Origin: Streptomyces sp. H27-H5
GTDB lineage: Bacteria > Actinomycetota > Actinomycetes > Streptomycetales > Streptomycetaceae
DNA length: 64,000 nt
Direction: 5' to 3'
NCBI RefSeq assembly: GCF_026627505.1
Contig: NZ_JAPNLK010000003.1
Coordinates: 2,840-66,839, forward strand
Each line of letters opens with the position of its first letter. Positions within the stretch are counted from its first letter, which is position 1. Below are positions 53,185 through 57,429 of this stretch, one piece after another. The translations under genes were made by a program, and so were the position numbers. The notes under the pieces were generated by a model. It did no database searches. It saw nothing but the letters and a program-made list of their open reading frames with translations, and was not told where the DNA came from.

Positions 53185-54525
53185 CTACCGGGTGCCGCGC
53201 AGGCGGCGCCACGGGGTGAAGGTGAAGACCGCCCCGCCGAGCAGGATCACCGTGCCGGCGACCAGGGCCAGGGCCTTGATGCCGCCGTCGTCCTGCGCGC
53301 CGGTCTCGGCGAGGCCGCCCGAACCCGAGGGCGTGCCCGCGCTCGTGCTGCCGGTGGAGGACGGGGAGCCGGAGCCGCCGGCCTGGGCGGTGGTGTCCAG
53401 TTCGAGCGAGACGGCGCTGCTGGTCGCCTTGCAGGGCACGTTGATGGGCGTGGAGCCCGGTGCCATGGTGACGTCGATGGTCAGTTGGTCGGGGGTCAGC
53501 GTCACCTTTCCGGTCTTGCCGGGCTTGTAGGTGCCGGTCATGTCGCTGAGGCTGACCGGGGCCTTGTCGGGGATCGGCTCGACGTTGGCCGGGCCGGAGA
53601 CCTTGACCGTGCCGCTGTCGGCGCCGCCGAGCTTGACGTTCATCGAGGGCTTGAGGGCGCCGGCGGGCAGGGCCATGGGCGCGGCCATCGCGCCCTTGGC
53701 GGTCTTGACCGTGAGGTCGTAGGCGCCGCCGTTCTTCTTGGCGTTGACGGTGACCGGGGTCTTGATGCCGCCGGGGACGACCGGGCCGCAGTCGAAGGCG
53801 ACCTCGACGGCCTTGCCCGGGAAGTCGGTCTGACCGCCGCTGCCGCCCGTGGTGGAGCCGGTGGTGGAGCCGGTGGTGGCACCGCCGGTCGTGGCACCGC
53901 CCGTGGTGGCCCCACCGGTGGTGGCACCGCCCGTCGTCGCGCCGCCGGTGGTCGCCCCACCGGTGGTCGCGCCGCCCGTCGAGCCGGCGGAGACGTCGAT
54001 GGTGGTCCCGCCCGTCACGGTGCCCACGGGGGCGCACTTGGTGACGAAGGTCCCGAAGGGGAAGGAGACGGCGACCTCGTACCGGCCGGGCGTCAGGGTG
54101 ATCTTCCCCGCCTGGGTGAGCTTGAGCTTGCCCTTCATGGTCGACATGACCATCGGGGCCTTCTTCGGGATCTCCGGGTTCTTCTTCTCCCCGACGACCT
54201 TCAGCTCGGCCCCGCCGCCGCTCACCGTGAACCAGCCGGTGGGCACCACGGAGTCCTTGGGGATCACCATCAGGTCCGTGTTGTTGGAGGCGGGCTTGAC
54301 CGTCTCCCACGACACGTCGACCTCGTCGCCGACCTTGGCCGTCGGGGGCGCGGTGATCTTGGCGGTGGTCTCGCCCTCCACCGGGGAGCCGCCGCCCGTG
54401 GGCGGTACGCACTTCACCTTGAACGTGGCGTCGGCCGCCTGGGCGGGGGCGGCCGCCAGCAGGATGCCCGCGCCGCCGAACAGCAGCGCGACAGCGGCCG
54501 CGCTCACCCTCCGTTGGGTCTTCAC
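53185..54525 (-). CDS. sortase-anchored surface protein, LAETG type
   Basis: A 446-residue wall protein. The signal peptide is about 1-30 (ending APAQAAD). Domain A (about 32-175) carries two Cys (KVKCVPP and VTKCAPV). A Gly/Ala/Thr linker with about seven GGATT units follows, then domain B (about 215-375). Domain B is clearly related to the LPQTG protein upstream and has two Cys (FDCGPVVPGG, VPCKATSS). The sorting signal at the end is LAETGAQDDGG, a hydrophobic helix and WRRLRGTR. LAxTG is the class E sortase motif known from chaplins. GTG 54525 overlaps the previous gene's TGA (GTGA). Confidence 0.88.
   Translation of the reverse strand: MKTQRRVSAAAVALLFGGAGILLAAAPAQAADATFKVKCVPPTGGGSPVEGETTAKITAPPTAKVGDEVDVSWETVKPASNNTDLMVIPKDSVVPTGWFTVSGGGAELKVVGEKKNPEIPKKAPMVMSTMKGKLKLTQAGKITLTPGRYEVAVSFPFGTFVTKCAPVGTVTGGTTIDVSAGSTGGATTGGATTGGATTGGATTGGATTGGATTGGATTGSTTGSTTGGSGGQTDFPGKAVEVAFDCGPVVPGGIKTPVTVNAKKNGGAYDLTVKTAKGAMAAPMALPAGALKPSMNVKLGGADSGTVKVSGPANVEPIPDKAPVSLSDMTGTYKPGKTGKVTLTPDQLTIDVTMAPGSTPINVPCKATSSAVSLELDTTAQAGGSGSPSSTGSTSAGTPSGSGGLAETGAQDDGGIKALALVAGTVILLGGAVFTFTPWRRLRGTR
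53845..53985 (-). repeat. 15-base in-frame repeats in surface protein linker
   Basis: About nine imperfect 15-base units encode GGATT/GSTTG repeats. They are G/C-rich and likely variable between strains. Confidence 0.8.
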
Positions 54526-55715
54526 GAATGTCCCTTCGTTGTCGGACGGTTCTCAGACGGTGCGGACGCCTGTGGGGCAGGTGGGCCTGGTGGTGCTTGG
54601 GATCCCGGCGCGCTGTCCGGGGTGAACCACGGCAGGACCGCCGTGGTGGTCTGGGGGGAGGCCGCCGGGGTGTCGGCGGGCGGGGCGGGCGTGGATCCCC
54701 GTACGGCCGGGATCCGCGGCAGTCGGGCCGTCACCGCCGACGCCGCCGCCTCCAGCGCCTTGGCGCCCCGGTGGTGGCCGCCGGGCGGGGCCCCGCCCGG
54801 TCGGGCCCGGTCGACGACGGCCATGCCGACGCGGAAGACGGCGGCGGGGACGACCAGCAGGAGCAGGCCCCAGAAGAGCAGGACCCCGTACGGGCGGTCC
54901 ACGCCCCACGGCTGCGTGGCCAGGACCTTGTCCCCGTACTTGAGGGAGACGGTGTAGTCGCCGTGGGCCCCGGCCGACAGGGCGGTGTCCAGGCGGATCT
55001 CCGCCTTGCCGCCGGGCGGGACGGTGCCCTTCCAGCGGGCCTCCTCCCACAGGGGGGCGAACACCCCGTGGGCGGTGCCGAGTTGGAAGACGGGGTCGGT
55101 GACGGGAGCGGAGCCGAGGTTTCCGACGGTGACGGTGAACTTCCGGGTGGGCGGGGCGCCGAACCAGGTCAGGACCCCGTCGTCGCCCTCCAGGCGGACC
55201 CCCGTCAGCACCGCGAGGCGGGCCGTCCCGGAGTCGGTGGGCAGTTCCGCCACCGGGTGGTCGGTGATCTTCAGTGGTGCGGCGACGGTGGACTGGTCCC
55301 CGTTGACGGAGGTCACGTTCACGACGCACGGGCAGGGCTTGGGCGGTTCCACGACCGGGAGTTGGGCGGTGAACCGCCCGTCGTCGGCGACCGCGACGGC
55401 GACGCCGTCGGCGTTCGCGCAACTGTTGGTGCCGCCGATCATGTTCTGTCCGCAGACCAGCAGCATCACCATGGTCTTGGGCCGCCAGCCGGCGCCGGCG
55501 ACCGTGATCCCGGTGCCTTTGGCGACCTCCTGGAGGGAGAGCGACACGGTCGGCTTGGTCTCCGCGGCGGCGGCCGGGGGCGCCGGGAACAGGGTCAGGA
55601 CGGCCAGGGCCAGGGCCGCCAGGGCCGAGGCCACGAGGGCCGACACCGCCGACCACCCCGCGGCGGCGAGGGTCCCGCCCGCCCCGCCGACCTTGGCGCT
55701 CACCTGGGTGCTCAC
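54522..55715 (-). CDS. neocarzinostatin-like exported membrane protein
   Basis: A 397-residue protein from GTG 55715. A hydrophobic export segment (about 18-50, VSALVASALAALALAVLTLF) precedes an Ig-like domain (about 55-150). That domain resembles enediyne apoproteins of the neocarzinostatin family (VSLSLQEVAKGTGITVAGAGW, two Cys pairs including CGQN/SCANADG and CPCVVN). A second beta domain follows (about 160-275), then a membrane helix (about 283-305, YGVLLFWGLLLLVVPAAVF) and a 90-residue Pro-rich cytoplasmic tail. The fold assignment is tentative. It is coupled by GTGA overlaps to both neighbours, so it belongs to the surface operon. Confidence 0.75.
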   Translation of the reverse strand: MSTQVSAKVGGAGGTLAAAGWSAVSALVASALAALALAVLTLFPAPPAAAAETKPTVSLSLQEVAKGTGITVAGAGWRPKTMVMLLVCGQNMIGGTNSCANADGVAVAVADDGRFTAQLPVVEPPKPCPCVVNVTSVNGDQSTVAAPLKITDHPVAELPTDSGTARLAVLTGVRLEGDDGVLTWFGAPPTRKFTVTVGNLGSAPVTDPVFQLGTAHGVFAPLWEEARWKGTVPPGGKAEIRLDTALSAGAHGDYTVSLKYGDKVLATQPWGVDRPYGVLLFWGLLLLVVPAAVFRVGMAVVDRARPGGAPPGGHHRGAKALEAAASAVTARLPRIPAVRGSTPAPPADTPAASPQTTTAVLPWFTPDSAPGSQAPPGPPAPQASAPSENRPTTKGHS

Positions 55716-56722
55716 CTGGGTGCTCCCGTCAACTCGGGTTCCTTCGACGTCGGTTGCGCCTGCCCCGGTACCGGCCCGGAGGGCTCCGGCTGCTCCTCGC
55801 GGGTCGCCCGTCGGGTGCGTACGAGGAGCAGCGCGGCCGTGGTGGCCGCGCCGAGGAGGAGCAGCCCGAGGCCCGTCCAGCCGGCGACGCCCCAGGGCAC
55901 GAACCAGTCGGAGGCGGCGGCCGTGGCCCGGGCGCCGCCCGGGGCGGTGACGGTGAGGGTGAGGCGCACCTGGTCGAACACCGGGGCGCCGGGCCAGGGT
56001 TCGGTGAGTTCGACGCTCTGGCCGGGCAGCAGTTCCACCGGCAGGGCGTGGGCGGCGCGCCCCGGGACCTCGCCGAAGCGGCCGCGCACGTGCAGGGCGA
56101 GTTCGGGGACGAGGGCCACGTTGCCGCGGTTGACGAGGGTGTAGGCGACACGCGTCGCCGCGCCCTTGCCGCGTACGGAGACGTCCTCGACGGTGAGGGC
56201 GGCCAGGGTCGGCCCGCCGACGCGCAGGTGGATCCGTACGCCGACCTCGTGGCCGGCCTCGGTGGCGACGACGGCGGCGGGGTGGTCTCCGGGCGGGGTC
56301 GCGGGGGGCACGGAGACGGTGAAGGGGACCACGGCGCGGGTGCGGGGCGGGATCCTCACGGTCGTGCTCGCGCCGAAGGACAGCCAGGAGCCGGCGCCGG
56401 TGGACCGGCGGTCGGGGCGTACCGCGAGGGCTCCGTCGGCGGTGTTGTAGGCGTCGGCGCCGCGCAGGGTGAGGGTGCGTTCCCGGTCGGTGGTGTTGGT
56501 CAGGGCGAGGCGGTCCTCCAGCACGCTGCCGGAGGCGCCGGCGAGGTAGAAGTACGGGCGTACGGCGCCGGCGGTCCGCCCGGCGGCCGGTTCGGCGGTC
56601 CAGCCCGGTTCGTCGGCGACGGCGGCGGGCGCGCCGAGGAGCAGCGCGGCGCCGGCGAGCAGCGCGGGGCCGAGGCGCCGGACGGTGGGGCCGAGGCGCC
56701 GGAGGGTGGGGGGTGCGGGCAT
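55712..56722 (-). CDS. DUF916/WxL-type extracellular protein with C-terminal membrane helix
   Basis: A 336-residue protein. The signal peptide is about 1-36 (GAALLLGAPAAVADEPG). An N-terminal beta domain (about 55-170: YFYLAGASGSVLEDRLALTNTTDRERTLTL, RIPPRTRAVVPFTVSVPPATPPGDHPAAV) has the DUF916/WxL peptidoglycan-binding pattern. A second Ig-like domain follows (170-270), then one membrane helix (about 282-304) and a short basic tail. In Firmicutes, DUF916 proteins are partners of WxL surface proteins. Start is ATG 56722, 17 bases after the LPQTG gene; the stop overlaps the next GTG. Confidence 0.8.
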   Translation of the reverse strand: MPAPPTLRRLGPTVRRLGPALLAGAALLLGAPAAVADEPGWTAEPAAGRTAGAVRPYFYLAGASGSVLEDRLALTNTTDRERTLTLRGADAYNTADGALAVRPDRRSTGAGSWLSFGASTTVRIPPRTRAVVPFTVSVPPATPPGDHPAAVVATEAGHEVGVRIHLRVGGPTLAALTVEDVSVRGKGAATRVAYTLVNRGNVALVPELALHVRGRFGEVPGRAAHALPVELLPGQSVELTEPWPGAPVFDQVRLTLTVTAPGGARATAAASDWFVPWGVAGWTGLGLLLLGAATTAALLLVRTRRATREEQPEPSGPVPGQAQPTSKEPELTGAPR

Positions 56723-56739
56723 GGGCGGGGCCGCTCCGT

Positions 56740-57429
56740 TCAGGACCGGGCCTGCCGGCCGCGCCGGGTCAGCCAGAGCACGCCGGCGGCGCCGGAGAGC
56801 AGCACGGTGGCGCCGAGGGTGCCGAGCGCGAGGGCGGAGTCGGCGGGGCCGGTCTGCGGGAGGCTGTCGCCGCCCGCCGCCGTGGACGCGGGGGGTGGTG
56901 GTGCCGCGCCGCCGCCGGGGGCGGTGACGTCCAGTTCGAGGGAGGGCTTGGGGCTGTTGCCGGGGGTGCAGGTGGTGGTGGTGCCCATGGCCTTGATGGT
57001 GAGGACGCCGGCGGTGAAGGTGACCTTGCCGCTCTTCTTGGGGGTGTAGGTGCCCGAGAGGTCGGTGATCTTGATGGGGGTGTCGGCGGGCACGGCCTCG
57101 GGGTTGGGCGGGCCGGAGACGGGGACGGAGCCCTTGTCGGCGCCGCCGACGAGGATGACGGCGCCGGGACTCATCGCGCCCTTGCCGAGTTCGATGGGGC
57201 TGGAGGAGACGCCCTTCTGGAAGGACATCGTCAGCTTGTACCCGTCGCCCGCCTTGACCGCCTTGATGTCGATGGGCGAGACGGCCGACTTGTCCCCGAT
57301 GGGTGTGGCGCAGTTGTAGGCGACGTCGACCACGTCGGCGTGGGCCGAGGGGGCGAGCGTCAGGACGGCCGCCGATCCGGCCAGCGCGGAGGCCAGCGCG
57401 AGCGCGGTGGTGCGTTTGCGGTGGGTCAC
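56740..57429 (-). CDS. sortase-anchored surface protein, LPQTG type
   Basis: A 229-residue wall protein from GTG 57429 (VTHRKRTTALALASAL), with GGGGAAG upstream. The signal peptide is about 1-31 (ending PSAHAD). One beta-rich domain with two Cys (AYNCATP, TTCTPGN) spans about 32-180 and matches domain B of the LAETG protein across its length (SGTYTPKKSGKVTFTAGVLTI versus TGTYKPGKTGKVTLTPDQLTI). A Pro/Ala linker precedes LPQTGPADS, a hydrophobic helix and RRGRQARS, a classical sortase signal. It is first in the four-gene surface operon. Confidence 0.88.
   Translation of the reverse strand: MTHRKRTTALALASALAGSAAVLTLAPSAHADVVDVAYNCATPIGDKSAVSPIDIKAVKAGDGYKLTMSFQKGVSSSPIELGKGAMSPGAVILVGGADKGSVPVSGPPNPEAVPADTPIKITDLSGTYTPKKSGKVTFTAGVLTIKAMGTTTTCTPGNSPKPSLELDVTAPGGGAAPPPPASTAAGGDSLPQTGPADSALALGTLGATVLLSGAAGVLWLTRRGRQARS

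Follow-up and report, generated by a model that had tools for sequence, protein, structure and literature searches.

A Streptomyces surface operon that is probably a WxL-free derivative of an actinobacterial WxL/WxLIP display locus

What is the place of a DUF916 protein in a surface operon that holds no WxL protein? The question is raised by a stretch of 64,000 nucleotides from Streptomyces sp. H27-H5 (assembly GCF_026627505.1, contig NZ_JAPNLK010000003.1, positions 2,840 to 66,839; hereafter the window), in which four minus-strand genes, here denoted A, B, C and D, form one operon according to their open reading frame coordinates (Table 1). The first-pass annotation, made from the letters of the DNA, described a four-gene surface operon that could be an actinobacterial counterpart of the WxL surface complex of Firmicutes. 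The description stands: A and B are separated by 17 bases, B overlaps C and C overlaps D by 4 bases each by coordinates, with GTGA read at the gene junction overlaps, each protein shows two hydrophobic stretches in a simple hydropathy scan, one N-terminal and the other close to the C-terminus, and the LPQTG and LAETG motifs of A and D were found again. We consider it rather likely that the operon derives, by loss of WxL, from an actinobacterial platform for WxL/WxLIP surface display, and that the sortase anchors A and D together with the membrane scaffolds B and C carry out the display. The evolutionary part of this reading is well supported; the bridging function of B and C is an inference.

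B consists of a DUF916-like domain (residues ~38-168), a second domain (~173-275) that we read as Ig-like, a transmembrane helix and a cytoplasmic tail; the C-terminal helix, a mark of WxLIP proteins, is the second hydrophobic segment of the hydropathy scan and begins at residue 282. Taken alone, B matches the DUF916 model PF06030 weakly (16.0 bits against a cut-off of 27.3, E-value 0.013), whereas 32 of 39 B relatives match it at E <=0.1 (best 5.8e-10); membership in DUF916 (PGBD) holds at the family level, with the window protein itself under the cut-off. A profile built from the 39 relatives finds the solved EfmWxLIP1 (9i25, 9i1y) at E 3.6e-7, over the first domain only; the 9i25 entry is entitled 'WxLIP from Enterococcus faecium locus A bound to long WxL'. 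Four of six Streptomyces plasmid records with a B relative are already annotated as 'DUF916 domain-containing protein'. B matches occur in 83 of 150 Streptomycetaceae genomes, and the B profile matches in 62 of 296 genomes of a phylum sample. The sequence comparisons support B as a protein of the WxLIP lineage.

Gene order was followed in a set of 45 loci, the window included, selected for a C gene adjoining B and a POT transporter gene or hutI-like gene nearby. A precedes and D follows the B-C pair in 41 of them, and the order is preserved in several genera of Streptomycetaceae; the other four are L036, which lacks D, L044, which lacks A and D, L185, which lacks A, and L062, which stops inside C at the end of its contig. 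The first-pass annotation had named two results that would speak against a counterpart of the WxL locus, no significant DUF916 match at the level of hidden Markov models and a gene order confined to close relatives. Neither was obtained, and the proposed counterpart is borne out by the DUF916 relation at profile level and by the order kept across genera.

Gene calls in 40 fetched stretches and the window revealed an extra gene adjoining B in many loci. The C-terminal domain of its product reads ...DFRGGxxGWSLTG...GxYSGVLTLTLS, and among 29 such proteins, chosen by motif, 25 match the Pfam WxL model PF13731 at E <=0.1 (best 7.4e-8), the first member shown scoring 17.1 bits against a cut-off of 25. 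The first Trp is invariant (mostly GWSL or GWTL) and the second motif is degenerate (LTLTL). The WxL-type gene lies between A and B in 17 of the 45 loci and is absent from 28, the window included; A and D are both kept in 15 of the 17 WxL-bearing and 26 of the 28 WxL-less loci. The order WxL-B-C also occurs in L211, from another family of the same class. The window operon gave no WxL match, nor did any gene up to five places from its B.

The absence of the WxL gene goes together with a change in B. In published AlphaFold2 models a DUF916 hairpin inserts into the WxL domain (PMC10599100). Counted from PGDH through the strand that follows (xLRV), the presumably corresponding hairpin has 25 residues in window B against 35-40 in WxL-linked relatives, and a hairpin that would insert into WxL is not recognised in the window protein. 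Among 39 B proteins 17 hairpins are short (25-31) and 22 long (35-40); in the 45-locus set all 17 loci with WxL have a long hairpin and all 28 without it a short one. We then sought WxL genes within five genes of 80 B genes from 81 stretches (80 fetched and the window); the fetched stretches were hand-picked from family matches, mostly the best-scoring ones, and are not an unbiased sample, and the WxL model used was built partly from the same loci. A WxL gene was found near none of the 28 short-hairpin and 50 of the 52 long-hairpin B genes. Three further loci, L244 and L245, fetched since their matches were split, and L188, whose B was read from an open frame and not from the gene caller, also combine a short hairpin with the absence of WxL, giving 31 short and 52 long. 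Across the 83 family loci with DUF916 that were fetched and read, no WxL gene lies near any of the 31 whose hairpin is shortened (~13 residues fewer). L247, where the DUF916-like gene is divergent and a weak WxL match (2e-6) lies at a distance of two genes, is not among the 83. At a separate locus next to era, searched in 80 named contigs, 77 of 77 B genes found adjoin WxL, and their hairpins are long (75 by script, two by eye). In other actinobacterial genomes 44 of 45 B hairpins span 32-47 residues, one B being a fragment, and a WxL match (E <=0.01) lies within five genes of 26 of the 45.

Could B still partner a WxL protein supplied in trans from elsewhere in the genome, only the local copy having been lost? 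The window genome does encode a WxL-type protein of 406 amino acids at locus L031. However, this protein adjoins a long-hairpin DUF916 partner of its own, window B has no long hairpin, and a local WxL gene is missing from all 31 short-hairpin loci read, which makes supply in trans improbable.

To place the losses we built trees of B without the hairpin columns, the last one also without segments 87-109 and 185-190. Chimeric or long-branched rows were removed, L032 from the first tree and L032, L066, L044, L063 and L178 from those built later. The tree requires two hairpin changes and three WxL changes. One loss falls at the base of the window's streptomycete clade (27 rows in the first tree, 26 in the last), and the other in another genus (L199, L244), where the pairing is weak and possibly reflects two losses. 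A single short clade is rejected (approximately unbiased test, p 0.004; 0% of 200 bootstrap trees), and at least two independent joint losses of WxL and hairpin are well supported. A short hairpin as the ancestral state was also rejected, the hairpin being long in the outgroup rows and in 44 of the 45 B of other actinobacterial genomes, where the distant alignments are unsure. The window operon is, by these comparisons, a secondary loss of WxL and not an ancestral actinobacterial form.

A different account holds that A to D are independent surface proteins that share only their regulation, B having been shortened under relaxed constraint once its partner was gone. Several B loops do vary in length in WxL-less lineages, and L036, L044 and L185 do without D, A and D, or A. 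Against this, the four genes keep their order in 41 of 45 loci, A and D persist in 26 of 28 loci that have lost WxL, and the 4-base overlap of B and C recurs in 31 of the 51 loci listed. We regard independence as rather unlikely, although more probable than supply in trans, and retain the derivation from a WxL/WxLIP platform.

What the WxL protein carries bears on the roles of A, C and D. Its architecture is a D-like head, a neocarzinostatin fold and the WxL domain, and in the AlphaFold2 model of the L040 WxL protein (predicted local distance difference test score, pLDDT, 86.3) the neocarzinostatin fold lies at residues 179-270 (Z 12.8). Ten domains were compared profile to profile with hhalign (45 pairs). 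The A head matches D head 2 at E 4e-50, D head 1 matches the WxL-protein head at 9e-33, the two D heads match each other at 3e-21, the A head matches D head 1 at 1e-20, and the WxL-protein head matches the A head and D head 2 at 2e-11 each. The first domain of C matches the middle domain of the WxL protein at 7e-9 (95.8% probability), the second domains of B and C pair at 8e-5 with only 60.6% probability, and the remaining 37 of 45 pairs stay at or below 7%. On this sequence evidence the heads of A, D and the WxL protein are judged homologous, as are the first domain of C and the middle domain of the WxL protein. Window A and D and the first domain of C are thus composed of the same kinds of part as the WxL protein, minus its WxL domain. 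On the hyphal surface the heads most likely serve in adhesion or carbohydrate binding or as structural elements. The first-pass annotation had placed the Cys-paired beta domains and the enediyne-apoprotein-like fold of the operon in the position of WxL. We rejected the A, C and D domains as WxL substitutes: they coexist with a WxL-type protein in 15 of the 45 loci, and since the WxL protein itself carries a D-like head and a neocarzinostatin fold, they are not its replacements. As to the WxL domain, the L040 model resembles the CfaE/CfaB pilins (Z 7.7, 118 residues, root-mean-square deviation 3.1), a weak match within the chance range that would fit, weakly, a donor-strand-completed Ig-like fold. 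The WxL domain profile alone gave one unrelated-looking match (E 0.028) against solved chains, and the profile of the whole WxL protein found no related chain among them.

C by itself falls just short of the PF00960 cut-off (23.2 bits against 25, E 7e-5), and 26 of 27 C relatives match this model at E <=0.1, upholding the earlier recognition of the fold. In the AlphaFold2 model of C (mean pLDDT 75.7) residues 53-151 take the neocarzinostatin fold (Z 13.2 to 1nco, root-mean-square deviation 1.8, 97 residues, 22% identity), and residues 165-273 resemble beta-sandwich domains of glycosidases (Z up to ~10); a Foldseek search with the model also lists the WxLIP 9i25 at a low TM-score. The first domain has four invariant Cys, two of them in a CPC motif. 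Such a fold raises the possibility that C carries an enediyne or another small molecule, or serves self-protection, the operon belonging to a natural product. The fold match and the E-value of 2e-10 to the NCBIfam enediyne chromoprotein model NF040680 are in keeping with this, but the score of 40.6 stays far below 86, the equivalog cut-off, a second domain and a transmembrane helix are present in C, the same fold is a module within the relatives' WxL protein, and the neighbours checked (enediyne genes were not sought elsewhere in the window) are two amidohydrolases, one POT transporter and two DraK-type two-component proteins. We give a carrier function hardly any credence and take C as a probable membrane-side component of the display platform.

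The anchoring of A and D follows the pattern of sortase substrates, namely a sorting motif, a hydrophobic segment and a basic tail, with sortases in the genome (11 matches in that of the window). A passes the sorting-signal model TIGR01167 (20.1 bits, cut-off 15.9). D gave no TIGR01167 match, and its signal, LAETG followed by a hydrophobic stretch and an Arg-rich tail, was read by eye and hydropathy. In the 45-locus set LPxTG occurs in 37 of 39 readable A proteins and LAxTG in 41 of 42 D proteins; that the two motifs are kept distinct within one operon suggests two sortases serving one complex, possibly one for A and another for D.

Together these observations can be put into a sequence of events. 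The sequences support A-WxL-B-C-D as the older form of the operon, from which the window lineage lost the WxL gene at the A/B junction, its B losing the hairpin segment kept by WxL-linked relatives. In WxL-bearing relatives, as has been put forward for E. faecium, the B hairpin would insert a strand that completes the beta-sandwich of WxL, and so would hold the WxL-protein head and neocarzinostatin-fold domains at the surface; the hairpin lost in the window lineage had probably gripped WxL. With the B-WxL joint abandoned, the same type of head would be displayed through covalent attachment to peptidoglycan, A by LPQTG and D by LAETG. B and C, single-pass proteins with two-domain ectodomains, may act as membrane-side scaffolds that contact wall-bound A and D, forming a membrane-wall bridge.

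Several observations weigh against this reading. Two long-hairpin loci of the family have no WxL gene. In L032 (window genome, contig C17) the front of a WxL protein is fused in frame to the second half of DUF916 and the WxL domain is gone; in L194 there are 124 bases between B and a subtilase-like gene, a gene found on the far side of WxL in L031, and the WxL gene seems to have gone recently. Of the 45 B in other actinobacterial genomes, 19 combine a long hairpin with no WxL match within five genes; the WxL model may be too restrictive for these lineages, or their B may retain the hairpin without WxL. The hairpin is not the only shortened part: loop 185-190 is likewise shortened in every one of the 28 short B compared and in two of 51 long ones (L244, a further short-hairpin B, keeps it), and segment 87-109, which may be the buttressing loop, is lost in 15 of 28 short B and kept in window B. 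PMC10599100 describes, for WxLIP, a buttressing loop of 20 residues that fixes the angle at which the next domain sits. The segment after PGDH is the putative WxL-inserting hairpin, and the alignment of B to 9i25 ends inside it. The EfmWxLIP1 match drops to E 0.0066 with a narrower B alignment, and the second domain of B gave no DUF3324 match among the 25 families shown, of 26, in the profile search. Finally, the trees show only two independent losses, and an independent-pairs test (p 0.5) lends the link between hairpin and WxL no statistical weight.

We tentatively extend the reading further, with clearly less confidence than in the derivation itself. The streptomycete WxL/WxLIP pair may be a general socket for various heads (Cys-paired ones with a neocarzinostatin fold, metallophosphoesterases, ricin lectins), dismantled in at least two lineages in which plug and holding strand were lost jointly and the same heads were anchored by sortase. 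On this view the neocarzinostatin fold would primarily be a component of the surface complex, and the enediyne apoproteins its soluble offshoot.

The features of the operon are collected in Table 1.

Table 1. Genes and intervals of the window operon (positions in the window).
Feature	Position	Strand	Description
Gene A	56740..57429	-	229 amino acids; sortase substrate, exported; one Cys-paired beta head domain; LPQTG sorting signal
A-B gap, 17 bases	56723..56739	-	site of WxL-type gene in 17/45 loci
Gene B	55712..56722	-	336 amino acids; DUF916/WxLIP-type protein
Hairpin-region codons, B residues 144-168	56219..56293	-	25 amino acids vs 35-40 in WxL-linked relatives
Gene C	54522..55715	-	397 amino acids; neocarzinostatin fold, juxtamembrane beta-sandwich domain, transmembrane helix, cytoplasmic tail
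Gene D	53185..54525	-	446 amino acids; two head domains, Gly/Thr repeat linker between them; LAETG class-E-type sorting signal

Amidohydrolase genes, read as hut genes, flank the operon on one side, and on the other lies an opposite-strand POT transporter gene with the genes of a DraK-type two-component system after it. Among the 40 fetched stretches, 17 have a gene of sigma-factor type close to the operon (for example L041:8018-10257 and L043:2595-3605), accompanied by a HATPase-type anti-sigma gene and mostly by a STAS-type gene, the domains being checked on three proteins only; no sigma or anti-sigma gene was seen adjoining the window operon.

The fetched stretches also contain WxL/DUF916 loci of other composition. 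In L194:4926-7380 the WxL gene is missing between the intact-hairpin DUF916 gene and the subtilase-like gene. On the Streptomyces goshikiensis plasmid NZ_CP108058.1 (L242:2436-5382) a RICIN-domain protein with a C-terminal WxL-type domain (our own model, E 1e-62) is encoded directly upstream of an annotated long-hairpin DUF916 protein. L060, L064 and L065, of one genus-level group (g5), show an expanded form in which a single DUF916 gene is surrounded by genes for two to four WxL-type proteins and additional anchored ones. In three genomes (L032:2866-5304, L191:4412-6277 and L162:1518-3482) a DUF916 gene shares one open frame with the Era GTPase gene; an internal Era start (MARMSDRS...) may be used. 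L067:4613-6538 and L068-L070 encode a purple-acid-type metallophosphoesterase with a C-terminal WxL-like domain adjoining a long-hairpin DUF916 gene, and in L067 a HupE/UreJ protein adjoins the metallophosphoesterase. DUF916 and metallophosphatases are reported near 'Ang-2' proteins in the accessible part of PMC12537917, and by its description alone the L067-type locus looks like that neighbourhood.

A literature search, in which most papers were judged from title and start of abstract, found none of these on a streptomycete WxL locus. WxL proteins have been described mainly from Firmicutes, above all gut commensals, and more than 91% of 938 known WxL sequences come from that phylum, by the portion of PMC9772566 consulted; here WxL/DUF916 pairs occur in many actinobacterial genomes. 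The losses described above form a natural experiment that points to a DUF916 segment serving WxL, a prediction checkable on the solved WxLIP-WxL complex, and they offer a surface-complex context for the neocarzinostatin fold.

The closest known systems are the WxL/WxLIP clusters of Lactobacillales and Bacillales, as far as the excerpts of PMC10599100 and PMC9772566 describe them. Like their WxLIP, window B has a DUF916 domain, a second domain and a transmembrane helix; like the clusters, the operon is a set of exported proteins, and its relatives have a larger protein in which display domains are combined with a WxL domain at the C-terminus. Unlike them, the window has no WxL protein, where the published cluster definition requires one WxLIP and two WxL, its B has neither the longer hairpin nor a DUF3324 match that we could see, and a C-type protein is not among the members described there. 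In the csc clusters, comprising cscA-D (PMC1534035), as in the window operon, all gene products are exported, and they include a DUF916 protein (CscA) as well as one of LPXTG type (CscD). CscD, however, has 90-140 residues, only 40-60 of them before LPxTG, whereas window A and D are longer and carry head domains, and no match to WxL proteins like CscB and CscC turned up in the operon or up to five genes away. D resembles class E sortase substrates, for example the chaplins (PMC5148588), in its LAETG, hydrophobic stretch and Arg-rich tail, with the difference that its operon partner A uses LPQTG. With the neocarzinostatin family (PF00960) C has in common the fold of residues 53-151, and it differs by its transmembrane anchor, its extra domain and the CPC motif.

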